DNA of 64,000 bases from Utricularia gibba. Taxonomy: Eukaryota > Streptophyta > Magnoliopsida > Lamiales > Lentibulariaceae. Position numbers and translations under genes: made by a program. Under the pieces are notes generated by a model. The model was not told the origin of the DNA and made no database searches. It worked only from the letters and a program-made list of their open reading frames with translations. Positions 24,855-64,000 of this stretch are shown here, one piece after another; the stretch's first letter is position 1; every line of letters starts with the position of its first letter. The DNA lies in assembly GCA_002189035.1 (NCBI GenBank), contig NEEC01000042.1:62001-126000 (forward strand). Reading direction: 5' to 3'.

Positions 24855-25272
24855 TGCACCAAGAACGGGACAAAGGTCAGGTTTGGCTTGCACCGAGAGT
24901 TAGTTGTAGCCCGGCAAATAAAGTGATGTATTTATTAACGTTCGGTTTTCGGAAGCTGCCTAAATGCTTTTTGAAAGAACATCTTCTCGTTTTTGGCGGC
25001 CAGTCTCGCTGGGAACTTGGTCTTGACCCCGGTTCTGTATCGCTCATGGGGTCAATCGGATGTAAATCGATGAAAAAAAATGATGCATTTGTTTAAATTA
25101 CGATATCACGTGCACCCACATCATTTTTTCAACAACGTACATTATACTTGAGGAGGTGGTCTTGGGGGGAGGGGAACCGGACAAAGGTTTGCATAGGCTT
25201 GGCCGAAAGTAAGTTGTAGCCCGGCAAAGAAAGTGAAGTATTTATTAACGTTCGGTTTTCGAGATTGCCTAC

Positions 25273-41843: not shown

Positions 41844-42578
41844 CCTGGTTATATTCATATTGTGCATTTTGGTGAGGAGAGCAGATTCACCATAAGTTTT
41901 CTCAACTTCATTACCATCTCTTAGTTCCAATCTCTTTTCTGTAGATTGCAACTCAATCATGAACTCTCTAAATGTTGGCTCTGGTGTAACAGGATATTCA
42001 GGATACAGCTGATGGAGCTTTCCTTCAATAATGTCAAGGATTTTTCTTTCTGTCTCAAGTGCACATAACTTTGGCTCGAATCTTGCAGGTAGGCTCATGA
42101 TTGCCTTGCTAATCACCTTTTGATCCTCAAGTTTTTCCCCCAATCCTCGAATCTCCTTCACAAGCTTCGCAGTACGTTCATAATAGACTTGTATGGTTTC
42201 ATTGTCTAACATTTTGTTCCTCTCAAAGTCCTCCAGCTTGTTTTTGCATAATATCTCTCTGAGTTTGGCATCGCCTTCATAATGGGATTTGAGAGTATCC
42301 CATATTTCTTTTGCTGATTGACACTCTGCAATATCATCAAATAGATGTTCAGAGATGGCTTGATACAAGGCATCCATTGCTTCATCTTTTCTCTGTTGAA
42401 GATACTCAGCTTCCTCTTGCTGTTCTGATGTGGATTTGCTTGTTATTGTAATAGCCGGAATCTCCCTTTCAACAACATCCCAAATCTTTCTGACCCGAAG
42501 GTAGCTGCGCATCTTTTTGACCCAGCTTCCATACTCTGAACCATCAAATATTGGAGGTCCTCTACCAGATGCCATCAT
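41823..42578 (-). CDS. gag: Truncated Ty1/copia Gag (DUF4219-UBN2), satellite-supplied stop
   Basis: Gag of copia elements forms the virus-like particle that packages element RNA. The frame encodes 251 residues. A DUF4219-like start lies at about residues 8-35 (F11, G13, Y16, W19). A UBN2 (copia gag-polypeptide) domain lies at about 65-190, with IWDTL at 92-96, a Leu/Lys/Glu-rich helical stretch and MSLPARFE at 161-168. The CCHC zinc knuckle expected further on is absent because the element is cut. Residues 246-251 (ARDTVI) and the TAA stop are satellite sequence, so the protein is a chimera. I chose the first ATG of an ATG-ATG pair; an in-frame GTG lies two codons upstream and a TAG further up. 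The LTR promoter lies upstream in the same orientation. Whether it is expressed is unknown; a pseudogene label would also be defensible. Confidence 0.85.
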   Translation of the reverse strand: MMASGRGPPIFDGSEYGSWVKKMRSYLRVRKIWDVVEREIPAITITSKSTSEQQEEAEYLQQRKDEAMDALYQAISEHLFDDIAECQSAKEIWDTLKSHYEGDAKLREILCKNKLEDFERNKMLDNETIQVYYERTAKLVKEIRGLGEKLEDQKVISKAIMSLPARFEPKLCALETERKILDIIEGKLHQLYPEYPVTPEPTFREFMIELQSTEKRLELRDGNEVEKTYGESALLTKMHNMNITRARDTVI

Positions 42579-42684
42579 AGCCACCGCTTGACAAGCTTTG
42601 GGTTGATACTTGGTAATCTACCAAGTAAAAAACGCTGAACGGTATATAAAATACTGAAACGAACACAGGTTTGAGAACCTTACT

Positions 42685-42696
42685 GCTCTGATACCA
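42685..42696 (-). other. Primer binding site, initiator-Met tRNA, copy 1
   Basis: The minus strand reads TGGTATCAGAGC directly after the LTR. This is the usual plant copia site, complementary to the 3' end of initiator-Met tRNA and used to prime minus-strand cDNA. It fixes the LTR boundary and the element's direction. Confidence 0.93.
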
Positions 42697-43019
42697 TGTT
42701 GTTGCAAGAAAAATAGTCTTGGGAAGTAACAAAAAGGTAATGCTTATGAGATCACCTTGGATGAAAAACGACTCATGAACAATAAGAATGACCGAAAACC
42801 TAATTGACACGCATTTCTAGTAGGGCTTATATATACCAAATACCTAGGTTACCCAACAGTGGGCCACAATCATTGAAAACACACAAAAAGCCCAACAACT
42901 CGAATCCAACACTTCCATGCTCGAACCCAACACCTTTTTTTATCTGAAATATGACATTATGACACAAGTTTAGTTCTTCCAATCACCTTCAAGCTTTGGA
43001 TTGAGGCTGATCTCCAACA
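42697..43019 (-). repeat. 5' LTR of copia fragment, copy 1 (323 bp)
   Basis: Read on the minus strand the LTR starts TGTTGGAGATC and ends GCAACAACA, giving the TG...CA ends of an LTR with a TGTTG/CAACA terminal inverted repeat. The primer binding site follows immediately with no spacer. Compared with the other copies it lacks two bases (ATAGTCTT against ATAGAGTCTT) near 42716. Confidence 0.92.
42827..42835 (-). promoter_or_regulatory. Putative LTR TATA box, copy 1
   Basis: The minus strand reads TATATATAAGCCC within the LTR, about 190 nt from its 5' end, a usual place for a copia LTR TATA box. Transcription would run through gag into the satellite towards lower coordinates. Activity is not shown. 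Confidence 0.65.
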
Positions 43020-46000
43020 CTTGGTCCGGGCCCCTGATTCTTTATGGCTCATGAGGACAAAAGGATGCAAATCGATGAATACAATGATGCAATTGTTTAA
43101 ATTACGATATCACGTGCACCCTGATTTTTTCAACAACTTACTTTATACTTGAGGAGGTGGTCTTGGGGGGCAAGAGGAACCGGACAAAGGTCAGCTTATG
43201 CTTGGGTCGAAAGAAAGTTGTAGCCTGACAAAGAAAGTGATCTATTTATTAACGTTCGGTTTTCGGGGCTACCTACATGGTTTTTCAAGGAACCGCTTCT
43301 CGTTTTGTGGCGGCCAGTCTCGCTGGGAACTTGGTCCTTTACCCCGATTCTGTATGGCTCATGAGGTCAACCGAATGCAAATCGATTAAAAAAAATGATG
43401 CATTTGTTTAAATTGCGATATGACGTGCACCCCACATGATTTTTTTCAACAACTTACTTTATACTTGGGAGGCGGTCTTGGGGTGCACCTGGAACGGGAC
43501 AAAGGTAAGGTTTGGCTAGCGCCGAGAGTTAGTTGTAGCCCGACAAATAAAGTGATATTTATTATCGTTTGGTTTTCGGGGCTGCCTACATGGTTTTTCA
43601 AGGAACCGCTTCTCGTTTTGTGCGGCCAGTCTCGCTGGGAACTTGGTCCTTGACCCCGATTCTGTATGGCTCATGAGGTCAACCGGATGCAAATCGATTA
43701 AAAAAATGATGCATTTGTTTAAATTGCGATATCACGTGCACCCCACATGATTTTTTCAACAACTTACTTTATACTTGAGGAGGCGGTCTTGGGGCAGCTG
43801 GAACGGGACAAAGGTAAGGTTTGGCTTGCGCCGAGAGTTAGTTGTAGCCCGACAAATAAAGTGATAAATTTATATCGTTCGGTTTTCGGGGCTTCCTACA
43901 TGGTTTTTCAAGGAACCGCTTCTCGTTTTGTGGCGGCCAGTCTCGCTGGGAACTTGGTCCTTGACCCCGATTCTGTATGGCTCATGAGGTCAACCGGATG
44001 CAAATCGATTAAAAAAAGTGATGCATTTGTTTAAATTGCGATATCACGTGCACCCCACATGATTTTTTCAACAACTTACTTTATACTTGAGGAGGCGATC
44101 TTAGGGTGCACCTCGAACAGGACAAAGGTAAGGTTTGGCTTGCGCCGAGAGTTAGTTGTAGCCCGACAAATAAAGTGATGTATTTATTATCGTTCGGTTT
44201 TCGGGGGCTGCCTACATGGTTTTTCAAGGAACCGCTTCTCGTTTTGTGGCGGCCAGTCTCGCTGGGAACTTGGTCCTTGACCCCGATTCTGTATGGCTCA
44301 TGGGTCAACCGGATGCAAATCGAAGAAAAAAAATGATGCATTTGTTTAAATTACGATATCACGTGCACCCTACATGATTTTTTCGACAACTTACTTTATA
44401 CATGGGGAGGCGGTCTTGGGGGTACCTGGAAGCGGAAAATGGTCAGCTTAGGCTTGGGCCGATAGTAAGTTGTAGCCCGGCAAAGAAAGTGATGTATTTA
44501 TTATCGTTCGGTTTTTGGGGCTGCCTACATGGTTTTTCAAGGAACATCTTCTCTTTTTGTGGCGGCCGCTCTCGCTGGGAACTTGGTCCGGGCCCCTGAT
44601 TCTCTTTGGCTCATGAGGACAAAAGGATGCAAATCGATGAAACAATGATGCATTTGTTTCAATTACGATATCACGTGCACCCCACATGATTTTTTCAACA
44701 ACTTACTTTATACTTGAGGAGGTGGTCTTGGGGGCAAGAGGAACCAGACAACGGTCATATTAGGCTTGGGCCGAAAGTAAGTTGTAGCCCGGCAAAGAAA
44801 GTGATGTATTTATTAACGTTCGGTTTTCAGGGTTCCCTACATGGTTTTCCAAGGAAAAGCTTTTCGTTTTGTGGCGGCCGCTCTCGCTGGGCACTTGGTC
44901 CGGGCCCCTAATTCTTTATGGCTCATGAGGACAAAAGGATGCAAATCGATGAAAATAATGATGCATTTGTTTAAATTACGATGTCGCGTGCACCCCAAAT
45001 GATTTTTTTAACAACATACTTTATACATGAGGAGGCGGTCTTGGGGGCACTTGGAACCGGAAAAAGATCAGCTTAGGCTTGGGCCGAAAGTAAGTTGTAG
45101 CCCGGCAAAGAAAGTGATGTATTTATTAACGTTCGGTTTTCGGGGTTGCCTACATGGTTTTTCAAGGAACAGCTTCTCGTTTTGTGGTGGCCAGTCTCAC
45201 TAGGAACTTGGTCCGGGCCGCTGATTCTTTATGGCTCATGAGGACAAAAGGATGCAAATCGATGAATACAATGATGCATTTGTTTAAATTACGATATCAC
45301 GTGCACCCCACATCATTTTTTCAACAACGTACTTTATACTTGAAGAGGCGGTCTTGGGGTGCACCTAGAACGGGACAAAGGTCAGGTTGGGCTTTGCCAG
45401 AGAGTTAGTTGTAGCCCGGCAATGAAAGTGATGTATTTATTAACGTTTGGTTTTCGGGGTTGCCTACATGGTTTTTAAAGGAAAAGCTTCTCGTTTTGTG
45501 GCGGCTGCTCTCGCTGGGAACTTGGTCCGGGCCCCCGATTCTATATGGCTCATGAGGTCAACCAGATGCAAATCGATGAATATAATGATGCATTTGTTTA
45601 AATTACGATATCACGTGCACCCTACATCATTTTTTCAACAACTTACTTTATACTTGAGCAGGTGGTCTTGGGGGCAAGAGGAACAGGACAAAGGTCAGCA
45701 TAGGCTTTGGCCGAAAGTAAGTTGTAGCCCGGCAAAGAAAGTGATGTATGTATTAACGTTCGGTTTTCGGGGTTGCTTACATGGTTTTTCAAGGAACAGC
45801 TTCTCCTTTAGTGGCGGCCAGTCTCGCTAGGAACTTGGTCCGGGCCCCTGACTCTTTATGGCTCATGAGGAGAAAAGGATGCAAATCCATGAATACAATG
45901 ATGCATTTGTTTAAATTACGATATCACGTGCACCCTACATCATTTTTTCAACAACGTACTTTATACTTGAGGAGGTGGTCTTGGGGGGCAAGAGGAACCG

Positions 46001-46231
46001 GACAAAGGTCAGCTTAGGCTTGGGCCGAAAGTAAGTTGTAGCCCGGCAAAGAAAGTGATGTATTTATTAACGTTCGGTTTTCGGAAGCTGCCTAAATGCT
46101 TTTTGAAAGAACATCTTCTCGTTTTATGGCGGCCAGTCTCGCTGGGAACTTGGTCCTTGACCCTGGTTCTGTATGGCTCATGGGGTGATGAAAAAAAATG
46201 ATGCATTTGTTTAAATTACGGTATCACGTGC
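43020..46231 (+). repeat. Satellite between fragments 1 and 2 (3212 bp)
   Basis: Begins mid-monomer at CTTGGTCC and holds about ten monomers. The first four full ones belong to a subfamily with GAACCGCTTCTCG, mostly CCCGACAAATAAAGTGAT, and GATTAAAAAAA. Some of their boxes are altered to GACGTG (near 43422) or TCGCGTG (near 44985). Then come CATGGGGAGG, CCAAGGAAAAGCTTTTCG and left-array subtypes. Anchors are 311-315 bp apart. Confidence 0.93.
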
Positions 46232-46966
46232 CCTGGTTATATTCATATTGTGCATTTTGGTGAGGAGAGCAGATTCACCATAAGTTTTCTCAACTTCATT
46301 ACCATCTCTTAGTTCCAATCTCTTTTCTGTAGATTGCAACTCAATCATGAACTCTCTAAATGTTGGCTCTGGTGTAACAGGATATTCAGGATACAGCTGA
46401 TGGAGCTTTCCTTCAATAATGTCAAGGATTTTTCTTTCTGTCTCAAGTGCACATAACTTTGGCTCGAATCTTGCAGGTAGGCTCATGATTGCCTTGCTAA
46501 TCACCTTTTGATCCTCAAGTTTTTCCCCCAATCCTCGAATCTCCTTCACAAGCTTCGCAGTACGTTCATAATAGACTTGTATGGTTTCATTGTCTAACAT
46601 TTTGTTCCTCTCAAAGTCCTCCAGCTTGTTTTTGCATAATATCTCTCTGAGTTTGGCATCGCCTTCATAATGGGATTTGAGAGTATCCCATATTTCTTTT
46701 GCTGATTGACACTCTGCAATATCATCAAATAGATGTTCAGAGATGGCTTGATACAAGGCATCCATTGCTTCATCTTTTCTCTGTTGAAGATACTCAGCTT
46801 CCTCTTGCTGTTCTGATGTGGATTTGCTTGTTATTGTAATAGCCGGAATCTCCCTTTCAACAACATCCCAAATCTTTCTGACCCGAAGGTAGCTGCGCAT
46901 CTTTTTGACCCAGCTTCCATACTCTGAACCATCAAATATTGGAGGTCCTCTACCAGATGCCATCAT
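46211..46966 (-). CDS. gag: Truncated copia Gag, copy 2
   Basis: The frame is uninterrupted and the predicted 251 residues are identical to those of copy 1, including the six satellite-encoded residues at the end. It starts at the same ATG-ATG pair. Confidence 0.85.
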   Translation of the reverse strand: MMASGRGPPIFDGSEYGSWVKKMRSYLRVRKIWDVVEREIPAITITSKSTSEQQEEAEYLQQRKDEAMDALYQAISEHLFDDIAECQSAKEIWDTLKSHYEGDAKLREILCKNKLEDFERNKMLDNETIQVYYERTAKLVKEIRGLGEKLEDQKVISKAIMSLPARFEPKLCALETERKILDIIEGKLHQLYPEYPVTPEPTFREFMIELQSTEKRLELRDGNEVEKTYGESALLTKMHNMNITRARDTVI

Positions 46967-47071
46967 AGCCACCGCTTGACAAGCTTTGGGTTGATACTTG
47001 GTAATCTACCAAGTAAAAAACGCTGAACGGTATAAAAATACTGAAACGAACACAGGTTTGAGAACCTTACT

Positions 47072-47083
47072 GCTCTGATACCA
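47072..47083 (-). other. Primer binding site, copy 2
   Basis: TGGTATCAGAGC on the minus strand, adjoining the LTR end. Confidence 0.92.
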
Positions 47084-47408
47084 TGTTGTTGCAAGAAAAA
47101 TAGAGTCTTGGGAAGTAACAAAAAGGTAATGCTTATGAGATCACCTTGGATGAAAAACGACTCATGAACAATAAGAATGACCGAAAACCTAATTGACACG
47201 CATTTCTAGTAGGGCTTATATATACCAAATACCTAGGTTACCCAACAGTGGGCCACAATCATTGAAAACACACAAAAAGCCCAACAACTCGAATCCAACA
47301 CTTCCATGCTCGAACCCAACACCTTTTTTTATCTGAAATATGACATTATGACACAAGTTTAGTTCTTCCAATCACCTTCAAGCTTTGGATTGAGGCTGAT
47401 CTCCAACA
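47084..47408 (-). repeat. 5' LTR of copia fragment, copy 2 (325 bp)
   Basis: Same TG...CA ends. It contains the two bases missing from copy 1. Confidence 0.92.
47216..47224 (-). promoter_or_regulatory. Putative LTR TATA box, copy 2
   Basis: TATATATAA on the minus strand in the same LTR position as in copy 1. Confidence 0.65.
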
Positions 47409-50400
47409 CTTGGTCCGGGCCCCTGATTCTTTATGGCTCATGAGGACAAAAGGATGCAAATCGATGAATACAATGATGCAATTGTTTAAATTACGATATC
47501 ACGTGCACCCTACATGATTTTTTCAACAACTTACTTTATACTTGAGGAGGTGGTCTTGGGGGCAAGAGGAACCGGACAAAGGTCAGCTTATGCTTGGGTC
47601 GAAAGTAAGTTTAGCCTGACAAAGAAAGTGATCTATTTATTAACGTTCGGTTTTCGGGGCTACCTACATGGTTTTTCAAGGAACCGCTTCTCGTTTTGTG
47701 GCGGCCAGTCTCGCTGGGAACTTGGTCCTTTACCCCGATTCTGTATGGCTCATGAGGTCAACCGAATGCAAATCGATTAAAAAAAATGATGCATTTGTTT
47801 AAATTGCGATATGACGTGCACCCCACATGATTTTTTTCAACAACTTACTTTATACTTGGGAGGCGGTCTTGGGGTGCACCTGGAACGGGACAAAGGTAAG
47901 GTTTGGCTAGCGCCGAGAGTTAGTTGTAGCCCGACAAATAAAGTGATAAATTTGATATCGTTCGGTTTTCAGGGGCTACCTACATGGTTTTTCAAGGAAC
48001 CGCTTCTCGTTTTGTGGCGGCCAGTCTCGCTGGGAACTTGGTCTTTGACCCCGATTCTGTATGGCTCATGAGGTCAACCGGATGCAAATCGATTAAAAAA
48101 AATGATGCATTTGTTTAAATTGCGGTATGACGTGCACCCCACATGATTTTTTTCAACAACTTACTTTATACTTCAGGAGGCGGTCTTGGGGTGCACCTGG
48201 AACGGGACAAAGGTCAGCTTAGGCTTGGGCAGAAAGTAAGTTGTAGCCCGCCAAAGAAAGTGATGTATTTATTATCGTTTGGTTTTCGGGGGCTGCCTAC
48301 ATGGTTTTTCAAGGAACCGCTTCTCGTTTTGTGGCGGCCAGTCTCGCTGGGAACTTGGTCCTTGACCCCGATTCTGTATGGCTCATGAGGTCAACCGGAT
48401 GCAAATCGATTAAAAAAATGATGCATTTGTTTAAATTGCGATATCACGTGCACCCCACCTGATTTTTTCAACAACTTACTTTATACTTGAGGAGGCGGTC
48501 TTGGGACAGCTGGAACGGACAAAGGTAAGGTTTGGCTTGCGCCGAGAGTTAGTTGTAGCCCGACAAATAAAGTGATAAATTTGATATCGTTCGGTTTTCG
48601 GGGGCTTCCTACATGGTTTTTCAAGGAACCGCTTCTCGTTTTGTGGCGGCCAGTCTCGCTGGGAACTTGGTCCTTGACCCCGATTCTGTATGGCTCATGA
48701 GGTCAACCGGATGCAAATCGATTAAAAAAAATGATGCATTTGTTTAAATTGCGATATGACGTGCACCCCACATGATTTTTTCAACAACTTACTTTATACT
48801 TCAGGAGGCGGTCTTGGGGCACCTGGAACGGGACAAAGGTCAGCTTAGGCTTGGGCAGAAAGTAAGTTGTAGCCCGCAAAGAAAGTGATGTATTTATTAT
48901 CGTTGGTTTTCGGGGGCTGCCTACATGGTTTTTCAAGGAACCGCTTCTCGTTTTGTGCGGCCAGTCTCGCTGGGAACTTGGTCCTTGACCCCGATTCTGT
49001 ATGGCTCATGAGGTCAACCGGATGCAAATCGATTAAAAAAAATGATGCATTTGTTTAAATTGCGATATCACGTGCACCCCACATGATTTTTTCAACAACT
49101 TACTTTATACTTGAGGAGGCGGTCTTGGGGTACAGCTGGAACGGACAAAGGTAAGGTTTGGCTTGCGCCGAGAGTTAGTTGTAGCCCGACAAATAAAGTG
49201 ATAAATTTATATCGTTCGGTTTTCGGGGGCTTCCTACATGGTTTTTCAAGGAACCGCTTCTCGTTTTGTGGCGGCCAGTCTCGCTGGGAACTTGGTCCTT
49301 GACCCCGATTCTGTATGGCTCATGAGGTCAACCGGATGCAAATCGATTAAAAAAATGATGCATTTGTTTAAATTGCGATATCACGTGCACCCCACATGAT
49401 TTTTTCAACAACTTACTTTATACTTGAGGAGGCGTCTTAGGGTGCACCTCGAACAGGACAAAGGTAAGGTTTGGCTTGCGCCGAGAGTTAGTTGTAGCCC
49501 GACAAATAAAGTGATGTATTTATTATCGTTCGGTTTTCGGGGGCTGCCTACATGGTTTTTCAAAGAACCGCTTCTCGTTTTGGCGGCCAGTCTCGCTGGG
49601 AACTTGGTCCTTGACCCCGATTCTGTATGGCTCATGGGTCAACCGGATGCAAATCGAAGAAAAAAAATGATGCATTTGTTTAAATTACGATATCACGTGC
49701 ACCCTACATGATTTTTTCGACAACTTACTTTATACATGGGGAGGCGGTCTTGGGGGTACCTGGAAGCGGAAAATGGTCAGCTTAGGCTTGGGCCGATAGT
49801 AAGTTGTAGCCCGGCAAGGAAAGTGATGTATTTATTATCGTTCGGTTTTTGGGGGCTGCCTACATGGTTTTTCAAGGAACATCTTCTCTTTTGTGGCGGC
49901 CGCTCTCGCTGGGAACTTGGTCCGGGCCCCTGATTCTCTTTGGCTCATGAGGACAAAAGGATGCAAATCGATGAATACAATGATGCATTTGTTTCAATTA
50001 CGATATCACGTGCACCCCACATGATTTTTTCAACAACTTACTTTATACTTGAGGAGGTGGTCTTGGGGGGCAAGAGGAACCAGACAACGGTCATATTAGG
50101 CTTGGGCCGAAAGTAAGTTGTAGCCCGGCAAAGAAAGTGATGTATTTATTAACGTTCGGTTTTCAGGGTTGCCTACATGGTTTTCCAAGGAAAAGCTTTT
50201 CGTTTTGTGGCGGCCGCTCTCGCTGGGCACTTGGTCCGGGCCCCTAATTCTTTATGGCTCATGAGGACAAAAGGATGCAAATCGATGAAAATAATGATGC
50301 ATTTGTTTAAATTACGATGTCGCGTGCACCCCAAATGATTTTTTAACAACATACTTTATACATGAGGAGGCGGTCTTGGGGGGCACTTGGAACCGGAAAA

Positions 50401-51565
50401 GATCAGCTTAGGCTTGGGCCGAAAGTAAGTTGTAGCCCGGCAAAGAAAGTGATGTATTTATTAACGTTCGGTTTTCGGGGTTGCCTACATGGTTTTTCAA
50501 GGAACAGCTTCTCGTTTTGTGGTGGCCAGTCTCACTAGGAACTTGGTCCGGGCCGCTGATTCTTTATGGCTCATGAGGACAAAAGGATGCAAATCGATGA
50601 ATACAATGATGCATTTGTTTAAATTACGATATCACGTGCACCCCACATCATTTTTTCAACAACGTACTTTATACTTGAAGAGGCGGTCTTGGGGTGCACC
50701 TAGAACGGGACAAAGGTCAGGTTGGGCTTTGCCAGAGAGTTAGTTGTAGCCCGGCAATGAAAGTGATGTATTTATTAACGTTTGGTTTTCGGGGTTGCCT
50801 ACATGGTTTTTCAAGGAAAAGCTTCTCGTTTTGTGGCGGCTGCTCTCGCTGGGAACTTGGTCCGGGCCCCCGATTCTATATGGCTCATGAGGTCAACCAG
50901 ATGCAAATCGATGAATATAATGATGCATTTGTTTAAATTACGATATCACGTGCACCCTACATCATTTTTTCAACAACTTACTTTATACTTGAGCAGGTGG
51001 TCTTGGGGGGCAAGAGGAACAGGACAAAGGTCAGCATAGGCTTTGGCCGAAAGTAAGTTGTAGCCCGGCAAAGAAAGTGATGTATGTATTAACGTTCGGT
51101 TTTCGGGGTTGCTTACATGGTTTTTCAAGGAACAGCTTCTCCTTTAGTGGCGGCCAGTCTCGCTAGGAACTTGGTCCGGGCCCCTGACTCTTTATGGCTC
51201 ATGAGGAGAAAAGGATGCAAATCCATGAATACAATGATGCATTTGTTTAAATTACGATATCACGTGCACCCTACATGATTTTTTCGACAACTTACTTTAT
51301 ACATGGGGAGGCGGTCTTGGGGGTACCTGGAACCGGAAAATGGTCAGCGTAGGCTTGGGCCGATAGTAAGTTGTAGCCCGCAAATAAAGTAATGTATTTA
51401 TTATCGTTCGGTTTTCGGAAGCTGCCTAAATGCTTTTTGAAAGAACATCTTCTCGTTTTATGGCGGCCAGTCTCGCTGGGAACTTGGTCCTTGACCCTGG
51501 TTCTGTATGGCTCATGGGGTGATGAAAAAAAATGATGCATTTGTTTAAATTACGGTATCACGTGC
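47409..51565 (+). repeat. Satellite between fragments 2 and 3 (4157 bp)
   Basis: About thirteen monomers. The first part has more monomers of the CCGCTTCTCG subfamily than the stretch after fragment 1, including a pair of GGGCAGAAAG monomers (about 48230 and 48855). The second part, from about 50400 to 51240, repeats the left-flank series that also precedes fragments 1 and 2. Confidence 0.92.
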
Positions 51566-52300
51566 CCTGGTTATATTCATATTGTGCATTTTGGTGAGGA
51601 GAGCAGATTCACCATAAGTTTTCTCAACTTCATTACCATCTCTTAGTTCCAATCTCTTTTCTGTAGATTGCAACTCAATCATGAACTCTCTAAATGTTGG
51701 CTCTGGTGTAACAGGATATTCAGGATACAGCTGATGGAGCTTTCCTTCAATAATGTCAAGGATTTTTCTTTCTGTCTCAAGTGCACATAACTTTGGCTCG
51801 AATCTTGCAGGTAGGCTCATGATTGCCTTGCTAATCACCTTTTGATCCTCAAGTTTTTCCCCCAATCCTCGAATCTCCTTCACAAGCTTCGCAGTACGTT
51901 CATAATAGACTTGTATGGTTTCATTGTCTAACATTTTGTTCCTCTCAAAGTCCTCCAGCTTGTTTTTGCATAATATCTCTCTGAGTTTGGCATCGCCTTC
52001 ATAATGGGATTTGAGAGTATCCCATATTTCTTTTGCTGATTGACACTCTGCAATATCATCAAATAGATGTTCAGAGATGGCTTGATACAAGGCATCCATT
52101 GCTTCATCTTTTCTCTGTTGAAGATACTCAGCTTCCTCTTGCTGTTCTGATGTGGATTTGCTTGTTATTGTAATAGCCGGAATCTCCCTTTCAACAACAT
52201 CCCAAATCTTTCTGACCCGAAGGTAGCTGCGCATCTTTTTGACCCAGCTTCCATACTCTGAACCATCAAATATTGGAGGTCCTCTACCAGATGCCATCAT
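51545..52300 (-). CDS. gag: Truncated copia Gag, copy 3
   Basis: Uninterrupted frame with a predicted protein identical to copy 1. Confidence 0.85.
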   Translation of the reverse strand: MMASGRGPPIFDGSEYGSWVKKMRSYLRVRKIWDVVEREIPAITITSKSTSEQQEEAEYLQQRKDEAMDALYQAISEHLFDDIAECQSAKEIWDTLKSHYEGDAKLREILCKNKLEDFERNKMLDNETIQVYYERTAKLVKEIRGLGEKLEDQKVISKAIMSLPARFEPKLCALETERKILDIIEGKLHQLYPEYPVTPEPTFREFMIELQSTEKRLELRDGNEVEKTYGESALLTKMHNMNITRARDTVI

Positions 52301-52406
52301 AGCCACCGCTTGACAAGCTTTGGGTTGATACTTGGTAATCTACCAAGTAAAAAACGCTGAACGGTATATAAAATACTGAAACGAACACAGGTTTGAGAAC
52401 CTTACT

Positions 52407-52418
52407 GCTCTGATACCA
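52407..52418 (-). other. Primer binding site, copy 3
   Basis: TGGTATCAGAGC on the minus strand, adjoining the LTR end. Confidence 0.92.
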
Positions 52419-52743
52419 TGTTGTTGCAAGAAAAATAGAGTCTTGGGAAGTAACAAAAAGGTAATGCTTATGAGATCACCTTGGATGAAAAACGACTCAT
52501 GAACAATAAGAATGACCGAAAACCTAATTGACACGCATTTCTAGTAGGGCTTATATATACCAAATACCTAGGTTACCCAACAGTGGGCCACAATCATTGA
52601 AAACACACAAAAAGCCCAACAACTCGAATCCAACACTTCCATGCTCGAACCCAACACCTTTTTTTATCTGAAATATGACATTATGACACAAGTTTAGTTC
52701 TTCCAATCACCTTCAAGCTTTGGATTGAGGCTGATCTCCAACA
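52419..52743 (-). repeat. 5' LTR of copia fragment, copy 3 (325 bp)
   Basis: The same ends and length as in copy 2. Confidence 0.92.
52551..52559 (-). promoter_or_regulatory. Putative LTR TATA box, copy 3
   Basis: TATATATAA on the minus strand inside the LTR. Confidence 0.65.
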
Positions 52744-55338
52744 CTTGGTCCGGGCCCCTGATTCTTTATGGCTCATGAGGACAAAAGGATGCAAATCGAT
52801 GAATACAATGATGCAATTGTTTAAATTACGATATCACGTGCACCCTACATGATTTTTTCAACAACTTACTTTATACTTGAGGAGGTGGTCTTGGGGGCAA
52901 GAGGAACCGGACAAAGGTCAGCTTATGCTTGGGTCGAAAGTAAGTTGTAGCCTGACAAAGAAAGTGATCTATTTATTAACGTTCGGTTTTCGGGGCTACC
53001 TACATGGTTTTTCAAGGAACCGCTTCTCGTTTTGTGGCGGCCAGTCTCGCTGGGAACTTGGTCCTTTACCCCGATTCTGTATGGCTCATGAGGTCAACCG
53101 AATGCAAATCGATTAAAAAAAATGATGCATTTGTTTAAATTGCGATATGACGTGCACCCCACATGATTTTTTTCAACAACTTACTTTATACTTGGGGAGG
53201 CGGTCTTGGGGTGCACCTGGGACAAAGGTAAGGTTTGGCTAGCGCCGAGAGTTAGTTGTAGCCCGACAAATAAAGTGATAAATTTGATATCGTTCGGTTT
53301 TCAGGGGCTACCTACATGGTTTTTCAAGGAACCGCTTCTCGTTTTGTGGCGGCCAGTCTCGCTGGGAACTTGGTCTTTGACCCCGATTCTGTATGGCTCA
53401 TGAGGTCAACCGGATGCAAATCGATTAAAAAAAATGATGCATTTGTTTAAATTGCGGTATGACGTGCACCCCACATGATTTTTTCAACAACTTACTTTAT
53501 ACTTCAGGAGGCGGTCTTGGGGTGCACCTGGAACGGGACAAAGGTCAGCTTAGGCTTGGGCAGAAAGTAAGTTGTAGCCCGCCAAAGAAAGTGATGTATT
53601 TATTATCGTTTGGTTTTCGGGGGCTGCCTACATGGTTTTTCAAGGAACCGCTTCTCGTTTTGTGGCGGCCAGTCTCGCTGGGAACTTGGTCCTTGACCCC
53701 GATTCTGTATGGCTCATGAGGTCAACCGGATGCAAATCGATTAAAAAAAGTGATGCATTTGTTTAAATTGCGATATCACGTGCACCCCACATGATTTTTT
53801 CAACAACTTACTTTATACTTGAGGAGGCGATCTTAGGGTGCACCTCGAACAGGACAAAGGTAAGGTTTGGCTTGCGCCGAGAGTTAGTTGTAGCCCGACA
53901 AATAAAGTGATGTATTTATTATCGTTCGGTTTTCGGGGCTGCCTACATGGTTTTTCAAGGAACCGCTTCTCGTTTTGTGGCGGCCAGTCTCGCTGGGAAC
54001 TTGGTCCTTGACCCCGATTCTGTATGGCTCATGGGGTCAACCGGATGCAAATCGAAGAAAAAAAATGATGCATTTGTTTAAATTACGATATCACGTGCAC
54101 CCTACATGATTTTTTCGACAACTTACTTTATACATGGGAGGCGGTCTTGGGGGTACCTGGAAGCGGAAAATGGTCAGCTTAGGCTTGGGCCGATAGTAAG
54201 TTGTAGCCCGGCAAAGAAAGTGATGTATTTATTAACGTTCGGTTTTCGGGGTTGCCTACATGGTTTTCCAAGGAAAAGCTTTTCGTTTTGTGGTGGCTAG
54301 TCTCGCTGGGAACTTTGTCCTGGACCTCGATTCATTATGTCTTATGAGGTCAACCGGATGCAAATCGATGAAAAAAATTGATGCATTTGTTTAAATTACG
54401 ATATCACGTGCACCCTACATGATTTTTTCAACAACTTACTTTATACTTGAGGAGGTGGTCTTGGGGGGCAAGAGGAACCAGACAACGGTCATATTAGGCT
54501 TGGGCCGAAAGTAAGTTGTAGCCCGGCAAAGAAAGTGATGTATTTATTAACGTTCGGTTTTCAGGGTTGCCTACATGGTTTTCCAAGGAAAAGCTTTTCG
54601 TTTTGTGGCGGCCGCTCTCGCTGGGCACTTGGTCCGGGCCCCTAATTCTTTATGGCTCATGAGGACAAAAGGATGCAAATCGATGAAAATAATGATGCAT
54701 TTGTTTAAATTACGATGTCGCGTGCACCCCAAATGATTTTTTTAACAACATACTTTATACATGAGGAGGCGGTCTTGGGGGCACTTGGAACCGGAAAAAG
54801 ATCAGCTTAGGCTTGGGCCGAAAGTAAGTTGTAGCCCGGCAAAGAAAGTGATGTATTTATTATCGTTCGGTTTTTGGGGTTGCCTACATGGTTTTTCAAG
54901 GAACATCTTCTCGTTTTGTGGTGGCTAGTCTCGCTGGGAACTTGGTCCTTGACCCCGATTCTGTATGGCTCATGGGGTCAACCGGATGCAAATCGAAGAA
55001 AAAAAATGATGCATTTGTTTAAATTACGATATCACGTGCACCCTACATGATTTTTTCGACAACTTACTTTATACATGGGGAGGCGGTCTTGGGGGGTACC
55101 TGGAACCGGAAAATGGTCAGCGTAGGCTTGGGCCGATAGTAAGTTGTAGCCCGACAAATAAAGTAATGTATTTATTATCGTTCGGTTTTCGGAAGCTGCC
55201 TAAATGCTTTTTGAAAGAACATCTTCTCGTTTTATGGCGGCCAGTCTCGCTGGGAACTTGGTCCTTGACCCTGGTTCTGTATGGCTCATGGGTGATGAAA
55301 AAAAATGATGCATTTGTTTAAATTACGGTATCACGTGC
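52744..55338 (+). repeat. Satellite between fragments 3 and 4 (2595 bp)
   Basis: Eight monomers plus a ~100-bp partial one. The order runs CCGCTTCTCG subfamily, GGTGGCTAGTC with GTCTTATGAGG, CCAAGGAAAAGC, CACTTGGAACCGG, then the hybrid monomer at the fragment junction. The left-array series present before fragments 2 and 3 is absent here. Confidence 0.93.
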
Positions 55339-56073
55339 CCTGGTTATATTCATATTGTGCATTTTGGTGAGGAGAGCAGATTCACCATAAGTTTTCTCAA
55401 CTTCATTACCATCTCTTAGTTCCAATCTCTTTTCTGTAGATTGCAACTCAATCATGAACTCTCTAAATGTTGGCTCTGGTGTAACAGGATATTCAGGATA
55501 CAGCTGATGGAGCTTTCCTTCAATAATGTCAAGGATTTTTCTTTCTGTCTCAAGTGCACATAACTTTGGCTCGAATCTTGCAGGTAGGCTCATGATTGCC
55601 TTGCTAATCACCTTTTGATCCTCAAGTTTTTCCCCCAATCCTCGAATCTCCTTCACAAGCTTCGCAGTACGTTCATAATAGACTTGTATGGTTTCATTGT
55701 CTAACATTTTGTTCCTCTCAAAGTCCTCCAGCTTGTTTTTGCATAATATCTCTCTGAGTTTGGCATCGCCTTCATAATGGGATTTGAGAGTATCCCATAT
55801 TTCTTTTGCTGATTGACACTCTGCAATATCATCAAATAGATGTTCAGAGATGGCTTGATACAAGGCATCCATTGCTTCATCTTTTCTCTGTTGAAGATAC
55901 TCAGCTTCCTCTTGCTGTTCTGATGTGGATTTGCTTGTTATTGTAATAGCCGGAATCTCCCTTTCAACAACATCCCAAATCTTTCTGACCCGAAGGTAGC
56001 TGCGCATCTTTTTGACCCAGCTTCCATACTCTGAACCATCAAATATTGGAGGTCCTCTACCAGATGCCATCAT
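55318..56073 (-). CDS. gag: Truncated copia Gag, copy 4
   Basis: Uninterrupted frame with a predicted protein identical to copy 1. Confidence 0.85.
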   Translation of the reverse strand: MMASGRGPPIFDGSEYGSWVKKMRSYLRVRKIWDVVEREIPAITITSKSTSEQQEEAEYLQQRKDEAMDALYQAISEHLFDDIAECQSAKEIWDTLKSHYEGDAKLREILCKNKLEDFERNKMLDNETIQVYYERTAKLVKEIRGLGEKLEDQKVISKAIMSLPARFEPKLCALETERKILDIIEGKLHQLYPEYPVTPEPTFREFMIELQSTEKRLELRDGNEVEKTYGESALLTKMHNMNITRARDTVI

Positions 56074-56179
56074 AGCCACCGCTTGACAAGCTTTGGGTTG
56101 ATACTTGGTAATCTACCAAGTAAAAAACGCTGAACGGTATATAAAATACTGAAACGAACACAGGTTTGAGAACCTTACT

Positions 56180-56191
56180 GCTCTGATACCA
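56180..56191 (-). other. Primer binding site, copy 4
   Basis: TGGTATCAGAGC on the minus strand, adjoining the LTR end. Confidence 0.92.
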
Positions 56192-56516
56192 TGTTGTTGC
56201 AAGAAAAATAGAGTCTTGGGAAGTAACAAAAAGGTAATGCTTATGAGATCACCTTGGATGAAAAACGACTCATGAACAATAAGAATGACCGAAAACCTAA
56301 TTGACACGCATTTCTAGTAGGGCTTATATATACCAAATACCTAGGTTACCCAACAGTGGGCCACAATCATTGAAAACACACAAAAAGCCCAACAACTCGA
56401 ATCCAACACTTCCATGCTCGAACCCAACACCTTTTTTTATCTGAAATATGACATTATGACACAAGTTTAGTTCTTCCAATCACCTTCAAGCTTTGGATTG
56501 AGGCTGATCTCCAACA
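56192..56516 (-). repeat. 5' LTR of copia fragment, copy 4 (325 bp)
   Basis: The same ends and length as in copies 2 and 3. Confidence 0.92.
56324..56332 (-). promoter_or_regulatory. Putative LTR TATA box, copy 4
   Basis: TATATATAA on the minus strand inside the LTR. Confidence 0.65.
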
Positions 56517-59111
56517 CTTGGTCCGGGCCCCTGATTCTTTATGGCTCATGAGGACAAAAGGATGCAAATCGATGAATACAATGATGCAATTGTTTAAATT
56601 ACGATATCACGTGCACCCTACATGATTTTTTCAACAACTTACTTTATACTTGAGGAGGTGGTCTTGGGGGGCAAGAGGAACCGGACAAAGGTCAGCTTAT
56701 GCTTGGGTCGAAAGTAAGTTGTAGCCTGACAAAGAAAGTGATCTATTTATTAACGTTCGGTTTTCGGGGCTACCTACATGGTTTTTCAAGGAACCGCTTC
56801 TCGTTTTGTGGCGGCCAGTCTCGCTGGGAACTTGGTCCTTTACCCCGATTCTGTATGGCTCATGAGGTCAACCGAATGCAAATCGATTAAAAAAAATGAT
56901 GCATTTGTTTAAATTGCGATATGACGTGCACCCCACATGATTTTTTTCAACAACTTACTTTATACTTGGGAGGCGGTCTTGGGGTGCACCTGGAACGGGA
57001 CAAAGGTAAGGTTTGGCTAGCGCCGAGAGTTAGTTGTAGCCCGACAAATAAAGTGATAAATTTGATATCGTTCGGTTTTCAGGGGCTACCTACATGGTTT
57101 TTCAAGGAACCGCTTCTCGTTTTGTGGCGGCCAGTCTCGCTGGGAACTTGGTCTTTGACCCCGATTCTGTATGGCTCATGAGGTCAACCGGATGCAAATC
57201 GATTAAAAAAAATGATGCATTTGTTTAAATTGCGGTATGACGTGCACCCCACATGATTTTTTTCAACAACTTACTTTATACTTCAGGAGGCGGTCTTGGG
57301 GTGCACCTGGAACGGGACAAAGGTCAGCTTAGGCTTGGGCAGAAAGTAAGTTGTAGCCCGCCAAAGAAAGTGATGTATTTATTATCGTTTGGTTTTCGGG
57401 GGCTGCCTACATGGTTTTTCAAGGAACCGCTTCTCGTTTTGTGGCGGCCAGTCTCGCTGGGAACTTGGTCCTTGACCCCGATTCTGTATGGCTCATGAGG
57501 TCAACCGGATGCAAATCGATTAAAAAAATGATGCATTTGTTTAAATTGCGATATCACGTGCACCCCACATGATTTTTTCAACAACTTACTTTATACTTGA
57601 GGAGGCGATCTTAGGGTGCACCTCGAACAGGACAAAGGTAAGGTTTGGCTTGCGCCGAGAGTTAGTTGTAGCCCGACAAATAAAGTGATGTATTTATTAT
57701 CGTTCGGTTTTCGGGGGCTGCCTACATGGTTTTTCAAGGAACCGCTTCTCGTTTTGTGGCGGCCAGTCTCGCTGGGAACTTGGTCCTTGACCCCGATTCT
57801 GTATGGCTCATGGGGTCAACCGGATGCAAATCGAAGAAAAAAATGATGCATTTGTTTAAATTACGATATCACGTGCACCCTACATGATTTTTTCGACAAC
57901 TTACTTTATACATGGGGAGGCGGTCTTGGGGGGTACCTGGAAGCGGAAAATGGTCAGCTTAGGCTTGGGCCGATAGTAAGTTGTAGCCCGGCAAAGAAAG
58001 TGATGTATTTATTAACGTTCGGTTTTCGGGGTTGCCTACATGGTTTTCAAGGAAAAGCTTTTCGTTTTGTGGTGGCAGTCTCGCTGGGAACTTTGTCCTG
58101 GACCCGATTCTTATGTCTTATGAGGTCAACCGGATGCAAATCGATGAAAAAAATGATGCATTTGTTTAAATTACGATATCACGTGCACCCTACATGATTT
58201 TTTCAACAACTTACTTTATACTTGAGGAGGTGGTCTTGGGGGCAAGAGGAACCAGACAAGGTCATATTAGGCTTGGGCCGAAAGTAAGTTGTAGCCCGGC
58301 AAAGAAAGTGATGTATTTATTAACGTTCGGTTTTCAGGGTTGCCTACATGGTTTTCCAAGGAAAAGCTTTTCGTTTTGTGGCGGCCGCTCTCGCTGGGCA
58401 CTTGGTCCGGGCCCCTAATTCTTTATGGCTCATGAGGACAAAAGGATGCAAATCGATGAAAATAATGATGCATTTGTTTAAATTACGATGTCGCGTGCAC
58501 CCCAAATGATTTTTTAACAACATACTTTATACATGAGGAGGCGGTCTTGGGGGGCACTTGGAACCGGAAAAAGATCAGCTTAGGCTTGGGCCGAAAGTAA
58601 GTTGTAGCCCGGCAAAGAAAGTGATGTATTTATTATCGTTCGGTTTTTGGGGTTGCCTACATGGTTTTTCAAGGAACATCTTCTCGTTTTGTGGTGGCTA
58701 GTCTCGCTGGGAACTTGGTCCTTGACCCCGATTCTGTATGGCTCATGGGGTCAACCGGATGCAAATCGAAGAAAAAAAATGATGCATTTGTTTAAATTAC
58801 GATATCACGTGCACCCTACATGATTTTTTCGACAACTTACTTTATACATGGGGAGGCGGTCTTGGGGGTACCTGGAACCGGAAAATGGTCAGCGTAGGCT
58901 TGGGCCGATAGTAAGTTGTAGCCCGACAAATAAAGTAATGTATTTATTATCGTTCGGTTTTCGGAAGCTGCCTAAATGCTTTTTGAAAGAACATCTTCTC
59001 GTTTTATGGCGGCCAGTCTCGCTGGGAACTTGGTCCTTGACCCTGGTTCTGTATGGCTCATGGGGTGATGAAAAAAAATGATGCATTTGTTTAAATTACG
59101 GTATCACGTGC
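56517..59111 (+). repeat. Satellite between fragments 4 and 5 (2595 bp)
   Basis: Collinear with the stretch after fragment 3 and of equal length, with compensating small indels (for example GGTGGCAGTC near 58070 for GGTGGCTAGTC). Confidence 0.93.
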
Positions 59112-59846
59112 CCTGGTTATATTCATATTGTGCATTTTGGTGAGGAGAGCAGATTCACCATAAGTTTTCTCAACTTCATTACCATCTCTTAGTTCCAATC
59201 TCTTTTCTGTAGATTGCAACTCAATCATGAACTCTCTAAATGTTGGCTCTGGTGTAACAGGATATTCAGGATACAGCTGATGGAGCTTTCCTTCAATAAT
59301 GTCAAGGATTTTTCTTTCTGTCTCAAGTGCACATAACTTTGGCTCGAATCTTGCAGGTAGGCTCATGATTGCCTTGCTAATCACCTTTTGATCCTCAAGT
59401 TTTTCCCCCAATCCTCGAATCTCCTTCACAAGCTTCGCAGTACGTTCATAATAGACTTGTATGGTTTCATTGTCTAACATTTTGTTCCTCTCAAAGTCCT
59501 CCAGCTTGTTTTTGCATAATATCTCTCTGAGTTTGGCATCGCCTTCATAATGGGATTTGAGAGTATCCCATATTTCTTTTGCTGATTGACACTCTGCAAT
59601 ATCATCAAATAGATGTTCAGAGATGGCTTGATACAAGGCATCCATTGCTTCATCTTTTCTCTGTTGAAGATACTCAGCTTCCTCTTGCTGTTCTGATGTG
59701 GATTTGCTTGTTATTGTAATAGCCGGAATCTCCCTTTCAACAACATCCCAAATCTTTCTGACCCGAAGGTAGCTGCGCATCTTTTTGACCCAGCTTCCAT
59801 ACTCTGAACCATCAAATATTGGAGGTCCTCTACCAGATGCCATCAT
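59091..59846 (-). CDS. gag: Truncated copia Gag, copy 5
   Basis: Uninterrupted frame with a predicted protein identical to copy 1. Confidence 0.85.
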   Translation of the reverse strand: MMASGRGPPIFDGSEYGSWVKKMRSYLRVRKIWDVVEREIPAITITSKSTSEQQEEAEYLQQRKDEAMDALYQAISEHLFDDIAECQSAKEIWDTLKSHYEGDAKLREILCKNKLEDFERNKMLDNETIQVYYERTAKLVKEIRGLGEKLEDQKVISKAIMSLPARFEPKLCALETERKILDIIEGKLHQLYPEYPVTPEPTFREFMIELQSTEKRLELRDGNEVEKTYGESALLTKMHNMNITRARDTVI

Positions 59847-59952
59847 AGCCACCGCTTGACAAGCTTTGGGTTGATACTTGGTAATCTACCAAGTAAAAAA
59901 CGCTGAACGGTATATAAAATACTGAAACGAACACAGGTTTGAGAACCTTACT

Positions 59953-59964
59953 GCTCTGATACCA
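59953..59964 (-). other. Primer binding site, copy 5
   Basis: TGGTATCAGAGC on the minus strand, adjoining the LTR end. Confidence 0.92.
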
Positions 59965-60289
59965 TGTTGTTGCAAGAAAAATAGAGTCTTGGGAAGTAAC
60001 AAAAAGGTAATGCTTATGAGATCACCTTGGATGAAAAACGACTCATGAACAATAAGAATGACCGAAAACCTAATTGACACGCATTTCTAGTAGGGCTTAT
60101 ATATACCAAATACCTAGGTTACCCAACAGTGGGCCACAATCATTGAAAACACACAAAAAGCCCAACAACTCGAATCCAACACTTCCATGCTCGAACCCAA
60201 CACCTTTTTTTATCTGAAATATGACATTATGACACAAGTTTAGTTCTTCCAATCACCTTCAAGCTTTGGATTGAGGCTGATCTCCAACA
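59965..60289 (-). repeat. 5' LTR of copia fragment, copy 5 (325 bp)
   Basis: The same ends and length as in copies 2-4. Confidence 0.92.
60097..60105 (-). promoter_or_regulatory. Putative LTR TATA box, copy 5
   Basis: TATATATAA on the minus strand inside the LTR. Confidence 0.65.
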
Positions 60290-62890
60290 CTTGGTCCGGG
60301 CCCCTGATTCTTTATGGCTCATGAGGACAAAAGGATGCAAATCGATGAATACAATGATGCAATTGTTTAAATTACGATATCACGTGCACCCTACATGATT
60401 TTTTCAACAACTTACTTTATACTTGAGGAGGTGGTCTTGGGGGGCAAGAGGAACCGGACAAAGGTCAGCTTATGCTTGGGTCGAAAGTAAGTTGTAGCCT
60501 GACAAAGAAAGTGATCTATTTATTAACGTTCGGTTTTCGGGGCTACCTACATGGTTTTTCAAGGAACCGCTTCTCGTTTTGTGGCGGCCAGTCTCGCTGG
60601 GAACTTGGTCCTTTACCCCGATTCTGTATGGCTCATGAGGTCAACCGAATGCAAATCGATTAAAAAAAATGATGCATTTGTTTAAATTGCGATATGACGT
60701 GCACCCCACATGATTTTTTTCAACAACTTACTTTATACTTGGGGAGGCGGTCTTGGGGTGCACCTGGAACGGGACAAAGGTAAGGTTTGGCTAGCGCCGA
60801 GAGTTAGTTGTAGCCCGACAAATAAAGTGATAAATTTGATATCGTTCGGTTTTCAGGGGCTACCTACATGGTTTTTCAAGGAACCGCTTCTCGTTTTGTG
60901 GCGGCCAGTCTCGCTGGGAACTTGGTCTTTGACCCCGATTCTGTATGGCTCATGAGGTCAACCGGATGCAAATCGATTAAAAAAAATGATGCATTTGTTT
61001 AAATTGCGGTATGACGTGCACCCCACATGATTTTTTTCAACAACTTACTTTATACTTCAGGAGGCGGTCTTGGGGTGCACCTGGAACGGGACAAAGGTCA
61101 GCTTAGGCTTGGGCAGAAAGTAAGTTGTAGCCCGCCAAAGAAAGTGATGTATTTATTATCGTTTGGTTTTCGGGGGCTGCCTACATGGTTTTTCAAGGAA
61201 CCGCTTCTCGTTTTGTGGCGGCCAGTCTCGCTGGGAACTTGGTCCTTGACCCCGATTCTGTATGGCTCATGAGGTCAACCGGATGCAAATCGATTAAAAA
61301 AAGTGATGCATTTGTTTAAATTGCGATATCACGTGCACCCCACATGATTTTTTCAACAACTTACTTTATACTTGAGGAGGCGATCTTAGGGTGCACCTCG
61401 AACAGGACAAAGGTAAGGTTTGGCTTGCGCCGAGAGTTAGTTGTAGCCCGACAAATAAAGTGATGTATTTATTATCGTTCGGTTTTCGGGGGCTGCCTAC
61501 ATGGTTTTTCAAGGAACCGCTTCTCGTTTTGTGGCGGCCAGTCTCGCTGGGAACTTGGTCCTTGACCCCGATTCTGTATGGCTCATGGGGTCAACCGGAT
61601 GCAAATCGAAAAAAAAAATGATGCATTTGTTTAAATTACGATATCACGTGCACCCTACATGATTTTTTCGACAACTTACTTTATACATGGGGAGGCGGTC
61701 TTGGGGGGTACCTGGAAGCGGAAAATGGTCAGCTTAGGCTTGGGCCGATAGTAAGTTGTAGCCCGGCAAAGAAAGTGATGTATTTATTAACGTTCGGTTT
61801 TCGGGGTTGCCTACATGGTTTTCAAGGAAAAGCTTTTCGTTTTGTGGTGGCTAGTCTCGCTGGGAACTTTGTCCTGGACCTCGATTCTTATGTCTTATGA
61901 GGTCAACCGGATGCAAATCGATGAAAAAAATTGATGCATTTGTTTAAATTACGATATCACGTGCACCCTACATGATTTTTTCAACAACTTACTTTATACT
62001 TGAGGAGGTGGTCTTGGGGGCAAGAGGAACCAGACAACGGTCATATTAGGCTTGGGCCGAAAGTAAGTTGTAGCCCGGCAAAGAAAGTGATGTATTTATT
62101 AACGTTCGGTTTTCAGGGTTGCCTACATGGTTTTCCAAGGAAAAGCTTTTCGTTTTGTGGCGGCCGCTCTCGCTGGGCACTTGGTCCGGGCCCCTGATTC
62201 TTTATGGCTCATGAGGACAAAAGGATGCAAATCGATGAAAATAATGATGCATTTGTTTAAATTACGATGTCGCGTGCACCCCAAATGATTTTTTTAACAA
62301 CATACTTTATACATGAGGAGGCGGTCTTGGGGGCACTTGGAACCGGAAAAAGATCAGCTTAGGCTTGGGCCGAAAGTAAGTTGTAGCCCGGCAAAGAAAG
62401 TGATGTATTTATTATCGTTCGGTTTTTGGGGTTGCCTACATGGTTTTTCAAGGAACATCTTCTCGTTTTGTGGTGGCTAGTCTCGCTGGGAACTTGGTCC
62501 TTGACCCCGATTCTGTATGGCTCATGGGGTCAACCGGATGCAAATCGAAGAAAAAAAATGATGCATTTGTTTAAATTACGATATCACGTGCACCCTACAT
62601 GATTTTTTCGACAACTTACTTTATACATGGGGAGGCGGTCTTGGGGGTACCTGGAACCGGAAAATGGTCAGCGTAGGCTTGGGCCGATAGTAAGTTGTAG
62701 CCCGACAAATAAAGTAATGTATTTATTATCGTTCGGTTTTCGGAAGCTGCCTAAATGCTTTTTGAAAGAACATCTTCTCGTTTTATGGCGGCCAGTCTCG
62801 CTGGGAACTTGGTCCTTGACCCTGGTTCTGTATGGCTCATGGGGTGATGAAAAAAAATGATGCATTTGTTTAAATTACGGTATCACGTGC
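60290..62890 (+). repeat. Satellite between fragments 5 and 6 (2601 bp)
   Basis: Collinear with the two preceding satellite stretches, with eight monomers plus a partial one and a net 6 bp more. Confidence 0.93.
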
Positions 62891-63625
62891 CCTGGTTATA
62901 TTCATATTGTGCATTTTGGTGAGGAGAGCAGATTCACCATAAGTTTTCTCAACTTCATTACCATCTCTTAGTTCCAATCTCTTTTCTGTAGATTGCAACT
63001 CAATCATGAACTCTCTAAATGTTGGCTCTGGTGTAACAGGATATTCAGGATACAGCTGATGGAGCTTTCCTTCAATAATGTCAAGGATTTTTCTTTCTGT
63101 CTCAAGTGCACATAACTTTGGCTCGAATCTTGCAGGTAGGCTCATGATTGCCTTGCTAATCACCTTTTGATCCTCAAGTTTTTCCCCCAATCCTCGAATC
63201 TCCTTCACAAGCTTCGCAGTACGTTCATAATAGACTTGTATGGTTTCATTGTCTAACATTTTGTTCCTCTCAAAGTCCTCCAGCTTGTTTTTGCATAATA
63301 TCTCTCTGAGTTTGGCATCGCCTTCATAATGGGATTTGAGAGTATCCCATATTTCTTTTGCTGATTGACACTCTGCAATATCATCAAATAGATGTTCAGA
63401 GATGGCTTGATACAAGGCATCCATTGCTTCATCTTTTCTCTGTTGAAGATACTCAGCTTCCTCTTGCTGTTCTGATGTGGATTTGCTTGTTATTGTAATA
63501 GCCGGAATCTCCCTTTCAACAACATCCCAAATCTTTCTGACCCGAAGGTAGCTGCGCATCTTTTTGACCCAGCTTCCATACTCTGAACCATCAAATATTG
63601 GAGGTCCTCTACCAGATGCCATCAT
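62870..63625 (-). CDS. gag: Truncated copia Gag, copy 6
   Basis: Uninterrupted frame with a predicted protein identical to copy 1. The whole frame is inside the window although the LTR is cut. Confidence 0.85.
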   Translation of the reverse strand: MMASGRGPPIFDGSEYGSWVKKMRSYLRVRKIWDVVEREIPAITITSKSTSEQQEEAEYLQQRKDEAMDALYQAISEHLFDDIAECQSAKEIWDTLKSHYEGDAKLREILCKNKLEDFERNKMLDNETIQVYYERTAKLVKEIRGLGEKLEDQKVISKAIMSLPARFEPKLCALETERKILDIIEGKLHQLYPEYPVTPEPTFREFMIELQSTEKRLELRDGNEVEKTYGESALLTKMHNMNITRARDTVI

Positions 63626-63731
63626 AGCCACCGCTTGACAAGCTTTGGGTTGATACTTGGTAATCTACCAAGTAAAAAACGCTGAACGGTATATAAAATA
63701 CTGAAACGAACACAGGTTTGAGAACCTTACT

Positions 63732-63743
63732 GCTCTGATACCA
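63732..63743 (-). other. Primer binding site, copy 6
   Basis: TGGTATCAGAGC on the minus strand, adjoining the LTR end. Confidence 0.92.
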
Positions 63744-64000
63744 TGTTGTTGCAAGAAAAATAGAGTCTTGGGAAGTAACAAAAAGGTAATGCTTATGAGA
63801 TCACCTTGGATGAAAAACGACTCATGAACAATAAGAATGACCGAAAACCTAATTGACACGCATTTCTAGTAGGGCTTATATATACCAAATACCTAGGTTA
63901 CCCAACAGTGGGCCACAATCATTGAAAACACACAAAAAGCCCAACAACTCGAATCCAACACTTCCATGCTCGAACCCAACACCTTTTTTTATCTGAAATA
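63744..64000 (-). repeat. 5' LTR of copia fragment, copy 6 (partial)
   Basis: 257 bp of the LTR are visible, ending in GCAACAACA next to the primer binding site. The start of the LTR lies beyond the window. Confidence 0.9.
63876..63884 (-). promoter_or_regulatory. Putative LTR TATA box, copy 6
   Basis: TATATATAA on the minus strand inside the partial LTR. Confidence 0.65.

Follow-up and report, generated by a model that had tools for sequence, protein, structure and literature searches.

The satellite array and its interruptions

The window analysed, a stretch of 64,000 bp, corresponds to C477:62001-126000 in the 100-Mb assembly of Utricularia gibba. A satellite repeat of ~312/313 bp filled the whole window, and its sole interruptions were six copies of one fragment. 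The fragments lay on the minus strand and were 99.7-100% identical. Five were complete and the sixth was cut by the window end, its right junction lying past the window at C477:126056-126076. The left junction (CACGTGCCCTGG) occurred six times, on one strand only, with zero occurrences expected from shuffled sequence. Fragments started at positions 41843, 46231, 51565, 55338, 59111 and 62890, giving start-to-start unit lengths of 4388, 5334, 3773, 3773 and 3779 bp. The initial annotation had described six fragments with the same junctions, orientation and truncation, in units of 3.8-5.3 kb, and both descriptions were borne out (measured range 3773-5334 bp). The features, in window coordinates, were the following.

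1..41843, plus strand: plain 312/313-bp satellite array upstream of fragment copy 1, 131 full monomers
41761..41843, plus strand: partial left monomer, model positions 1-101, with an internal deletion of ~15 bp and the private variant ATTACGGTATCACGTG
41843..43019, minus strand: fragment copy 1, with the satellite/gag junction at 41843-41847, the gag part, the PBS and the 5′ LTR (end 43019)
41826..42578, minus strand: truncated gag frame, 251 codons, the final codons from satellite DNA (NITRARDTVI, stop)
42685..42696, minus strand: PBS TGGTATCAGAGC, immediately after the LTR, read from sequence
42697..43019, minus strand: 5′ LTR of copy 1, 323 bp, TGTTG...CAACA, with TATATATAAG box, matching both LTRs of the family copy on C510
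43020..46230, plus strand: satellite part of unit 1, 10 full monomers and a partial one (unit 4388 bp)
46231..47408, minus strand: fragment copy 2
47409..51564, plus strand: satellite part of unit 2, 13 full monomers and a partial one (unit 5334 bp)
51565..52743, minus strand: fragment copy 3
52744..55337, plus strand: satellite part of unit 3, 8 full monomers and a partial one (unit 3773 bp)
55338..56516, minus strand: fragment copy 4
56517..59110, plus strand: satellite part of unit 4, 8 full monomers and a partial one (unit 3773 bp)
59111..60289, minus strand: fragment copy 5
60290..62889, plus strand: satellite part of unit 5, 8 full monomers and a partial one (unit 3779 bp)
62890..64000, minus strand: fragment copy 6, incomplete at the window end and running on to C477:126068

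On a 312-bp monomer model, the satellite ended at position 101 and restarted at position 1 in every copy, so that 211 bp of phase were absent. A gap of ~212 bp had been proposed earlier; the gap itself was present throughout, and its size is corrected here to 211 bp. The satellite was abundant, a single 23-mer having 2253 exact matches in the assembly, and the literature yielded nothing relevant on a 313-bp centromere satellite of plants. The plain array at 1..41843 carried a weak 5-mer higher-order repeat (lag-5 identity 0.911 vs a mean of 0.888). Outside the window, 43 kb of plain, fragment-free satellite (C477:129832-173082, 139 full monomers) parted the two clusters of composite units. Near the start of C477 (C477:1-3000, from ~887) the satellite was broken by a Ty3/gypsy-like element with a minus-strand frame of 313 codons, whose sequence was of integrase type as judged by eye.

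The copia source and the single origin of the copies

Read on the minus strand, the fragment consisted of a 323-bp 5′ LTR, a PBS and the N-terminal part of gag, and it stopped ~1.17 kb from the element start, thus representing ~22% of a 5.3-kb Ty1/copia element. TG..CA LTR ends and a PBS, as expected of a Ty1/copia LTR retrotransposon source, were both present. The gag frame of copy 3 (window:51548-52300) matched Pfam Retrotran_gag_2 (E 2.2e-27). Family copies outside the composites were 95-99% identical to the fragment across its length. One of them, on C510, was ~5.3 kb long with matching LTRs and, when searched in pieces, contained gag, rve and then RVT_2 (E 1.1e-82), an order with integrase before RVT_2 that is typical of copia. 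Judged from its copia-type gag and this domain order, the source is a Ty1/copia LTR retrotransposon. A complete element would have two LTRs and a target-site duplication where it entered the satellite; the composite insert did not have this set and is therefore a truncated fragment. No 3′ LTR/satellite junction was found genome-wide with up to three mismatches allowed, and no full-length precursor insertion at the capture site was found in the genome.

The C510 family copy (C510:89146-94457) had identical LTRs, yet its flanks were without a 5-bp target-site duplication. Both flanks resembled one other element, which suggests a deletion or recombination at the insertion. Elsewhere, family copies were clustered at C4:1.98-2.05 Mb, C2:2.82-2.92 Mb, C3:4.63-4.71 Mb and C460:185-218 kb, and several lone LTR matches were also found. 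The satellite was absent from the stretches sampled in these four copia-rich regions.

Searching the whole assembly for exact junction sequences returned 26 left-junction and 23 right-junction matches, all forward. All 23 right-junction matches lay within contigs that hold fragment copies. A left-junction match on C411 was rejected as a chance hit, as the DNA around it was single-copy, with a gene-like reading frame close by. In total there were 25 fragment copies, 24 of them complete: 13 on C477, four each on C39 and C513, three on C15 and one, cut by the contig end, on C21. The complete copy at C477:191271, near a contig end, was not matched by the right-junction pattern; it aligned over its full length with several small indels. 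The initial annotation had proposed a genome-wide junction count and had held that other breakpoints or satellite phases within the cluster would refute one insertion followed by tandem amplification. The count gave 25 real copies on five satellite contigs, and no other breakpoint, phase or orientation was present among them.

Composite units were located at or near an end of all five contigs. Since the composite clusters reach contig ends, the count of 25 is a lower bound and the true number is probably larger; it also refers to assembled copies and not to loci on one chromosome, since some contigs may be alternative haplotypes, and copy number inside the assembled clusters depends on the assembler. 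Copies near contig ends, including those on C39, C513 and C15, carried few substitutions and at least one short indel, in some cases several. These scattered indels are likely to be consensus errors, as in a weakly polished consensus. The 251-codon gag frame was open in 13 of the 24 complete copies and had 250 codons in one further copy, counts that are unreliable for the end copies on C39, C513 and C15 because of the likely errors. The breaks were due to such short indels, hence the frame can be called neither decayed nor conserved. In 23 of the 24, the LTR was present with its TATATATAAG box.

The concentration of units at contig ends and the extra indels there would also be expected if the assembler had duplicated one unit. 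We consider such an artefact extremely unlikely, as the units, spread over five contigs, were set apart by their number of whole monomers, by monomer variants of their own and by two substitutions in the fragment, and an assembler would not invent such differences.

The junction sequences of the family copies (AATTGCACCTGAGGTTATATT), the satellite (GTGCACCCTACATG) and the composite (GTGC-CCT-GGTTATATT) were compared. By this comparison the composite sequence reads as an end-joining scar of a few ambiguous bases. The partial left monomer carried the private variant ATTACGGTATCACGTG at 25/25 junctions, and this variant was found nowhere else in the examined satellite of these contigs. A tree built from 17 family copies and the 24 complete composites grouped all composites in a single clade (support 0.93), to which the copies on C510 and C1 were nearest. 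Six bases were fixed in the composites and absent from all 17 family copies. With the same double junction, monophyly and derived bases, all copies trace back to a single insertion event.

Independent copia insertions at a preferred satellite site, each truncated later, could be entertained on the grounds that family copies do cluster in places, such as the six in a 70-kb stretch of C4. However, the four sampled regions of clustered family copies held no satellite, and the base-exact 3′ breakpoint, the loss of 211 bp of phase, the private left monomer, the derived bases and the matched flanks were shared by all copies. We give this scenario practically no credence, and the earlier argument that the six fragments cannot represent six insertions is upheld on the same evidence.

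Composite units and their amplification

Flanking satellite monomers corresponded by position across units. Same-position monomers had a mean identity of 0.940 vs 0.882 after shuffling (sd 0.002, maximum 0.888, 200 shuffles), and fragment and satellite were therefore amplified together. The monomer at +1 was 0.990-0.992 identical in all comparisons, and identity dropped with distance from the fragment. Two unit types were present, an 8-monomer unit of 3.77 kb in the window cluster and a 6-monomer unit of 3.14 kb outside the window. Identity in the window cluster peaked at lags 8 (0.937) and 16 (0.924), and in the second cluster (C477:173-193 kb) at lags 6, 12 and 18 (0.947, 0.943 and 0.927), vs ~0.86-0.90 at lags that were not multiples. 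Both clusters thus behaved as higher-order repeats. The units were arranged in tandem: four 8-mer units were consecutive, and 6-mer units occurred in C477, C39 and C513. Taken with the shared junctions and monophyly, the position-matched flanks place the co-amplification within the satellite array.

Spread of the fragment by gene conversion into many monomers, with the flanks not duplicated, would agree with the greater similarity among fragments than among the satellite parts that accompany them, and with one second-cluster copy that has window-type bases. Conversion may homogenise copies but it does not create positional order, and monomers several places off were still position-matched, with clear 8-mer and 6-mer periodicity. 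It is thus a very unlikely origin of the units.

Between the two unit types, the +1 monomer was 0.990 identical, the next monomer 0.902 and the full left neighbour 0.920. High identity was therefore limited to the fragment and its immediate surroundings, namely the partial monomer on the left and roughly one monomer on the right. Two fragment substitutions, 210 G to A and 1059 T to A, largely tracked the division between unit types. The exceptions were two copies with the first change only, and the copy at C477:188145, which lies in the second cluster and has window-type bases at both positions. The bases of this last copy indicate that exchange or conversion between unit types has probably also acted. 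Two unit lengths from the same capture mean that the composite underwent two or more rounds of amplification, and the two types probably exchanged some sequence. The initial annotation had envisaged one capture followed by tandem amplification of fragment plus satellite. Its capture and co-amplification stand on the double junction, monophyly, ATTACGGTATCACGTG and the position-matched monomers, and a single amplification of one unit does not, given the two unit types.

Satellite parts were more variable than fragments. In the four 8-mer units the fragments had no differences and the satellite parts differed at 0.65% of sites, mostly in one unit; in the eight 6-mer units the values were 0.17% and 1.05%. 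The fragment lacks diverse exchange partners in the array, and comparing it with its flanks therefore splits monomer exchange from point mutation. Differences in the satellite parts were concentrated in certain monomers (e.g. U10.3 and U10.4), as expected from exchange among diverse monomers. Plain co-duplication does not account for satellite parts that differ by 0.6-1.0% vs 0-0.2% for fragments, and later exchange among monomers is needed. The near-identity of the fragments points to an array that may be young or strongly homogenised.

We consider one capture with co-amplification in at least two rounds to be very probably the correct explanation. One Ty1/copia element would have entered a satellite monomer in reverse orientation at GGGAA^CTTGG. 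Everything in the element past its first ~1.17 kb, and with it ~211 bp of satellite phase, would then have disappeared, leaving the end-joining scar GTGC-CCT-GGTTATA. The earlier order of insertion and then truncation is kept here as the presumed one; insertion by one end of an already truncated copy would leave the same structure. The resulting composite (partial monomer, gag/PBS/5′ LTR and next monomer) would have been multiplied in tandem with its satellite neighbours, in at least two rounds with different exchange points, to give the 8-monomer unit in the window and the 6-monomer unit elsewhere.

The copying step was most likely unequal crossing-over or sister-chromatid exchange. Unit lengths differed by whole monomers, which is a prediction of unequal exchange. 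Rolling-circle replication of an excised circle with reinsertion, which departs from the preferred explanation in the copying step only, is conceivable at a lower probability. Runs of near-identical units (3773, 3773, 3779, 3764; 3149, 3149) are expected from a circle. However, units of 10, 13, 14 and 18 full monomers with internal local repeats adjoined the uniform ones, as unequal exchange predicts; the uniform runs themselves may still have come from a circle.

Under capture and co-amplification, the composite is most simply read as a passive by-product of satellite turnover, for which no function is needed. The LTR with its TATATATAAG box would in principle be able to start transcripts into the satellite. 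It is very unlikely that the captured 5′ LTR is still a promoter, with a putative transcript from each composite unit running through the truncated gag into the satellite minus strand, and that the fragment has been kept or amplified for driving satellite transcription, small-RNA production or centromere chromatin.

Relation to known satellite and retrotransposon systems

Insertion of transposable elements into satellite arrays is established (reviewed in PMC12628747). CRM elements in Brachypodium centromere arrays were duplicated after integration (PMC10910784), and the same is reported there for ATHILA in Arabidopsis centromere arrays (Naish 2021 and Wlodzimierz 2023, as cited in PMC10910784). 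As in the present case, an LTR element inserted into a satellite array, and its copies then multiplied through duplication inside the array. Unlike CRM and ATHILA, which are Ty3/gypsy, the insert here is a truncated Ty1/copia 5′ fragment that forms a regular part of two unit types. The centromeres of Solanum verrucosum have LTR-derived, kilobase-scale tandem arrays (PMC13232507), with units of 1.7-4.1 kb that contain LTR-retrotransposon sequence, one with a GAG domain. Those units derive from LTR elements (CRM or Tekay, where an assignment was made) and are described as having no higher-order topology, whereas more than 60% of the unit described here is ordinary 312-bp satellite. Lathyrus satellites arose from tandem repeats inside Ogre elements (PMC7004042) and are likewise tandemly repeated retrotransposon sequence. 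In Lathyrus, however, the repeat unit comes from the element, while here a pre-existing satellite absorbed one. CentP of Pennisetum provides higher-order repeats of a plant centromere satellite (PMC12933667), with multi-monomer units and position-specific identity as here. Unlike CentP, the present higher-order unit carries a non-satellite insert and is hence directly countable. Comparable co-amplification of transposable elements is thus already documented, and the present case is a clear and well-resolved further example. It shows a copia 5′ end taken into higher-order units, vs the better-known gypsy elements CRM and ATHILA.

The insert tags one satellite lineage, and exchange events in an otherwise featureless array become countable and can be ordered, here as one capture, two unit types and later gain and loss of monomers. 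It also gives a marker, for cytology and for PCR, of one region of the satellite.
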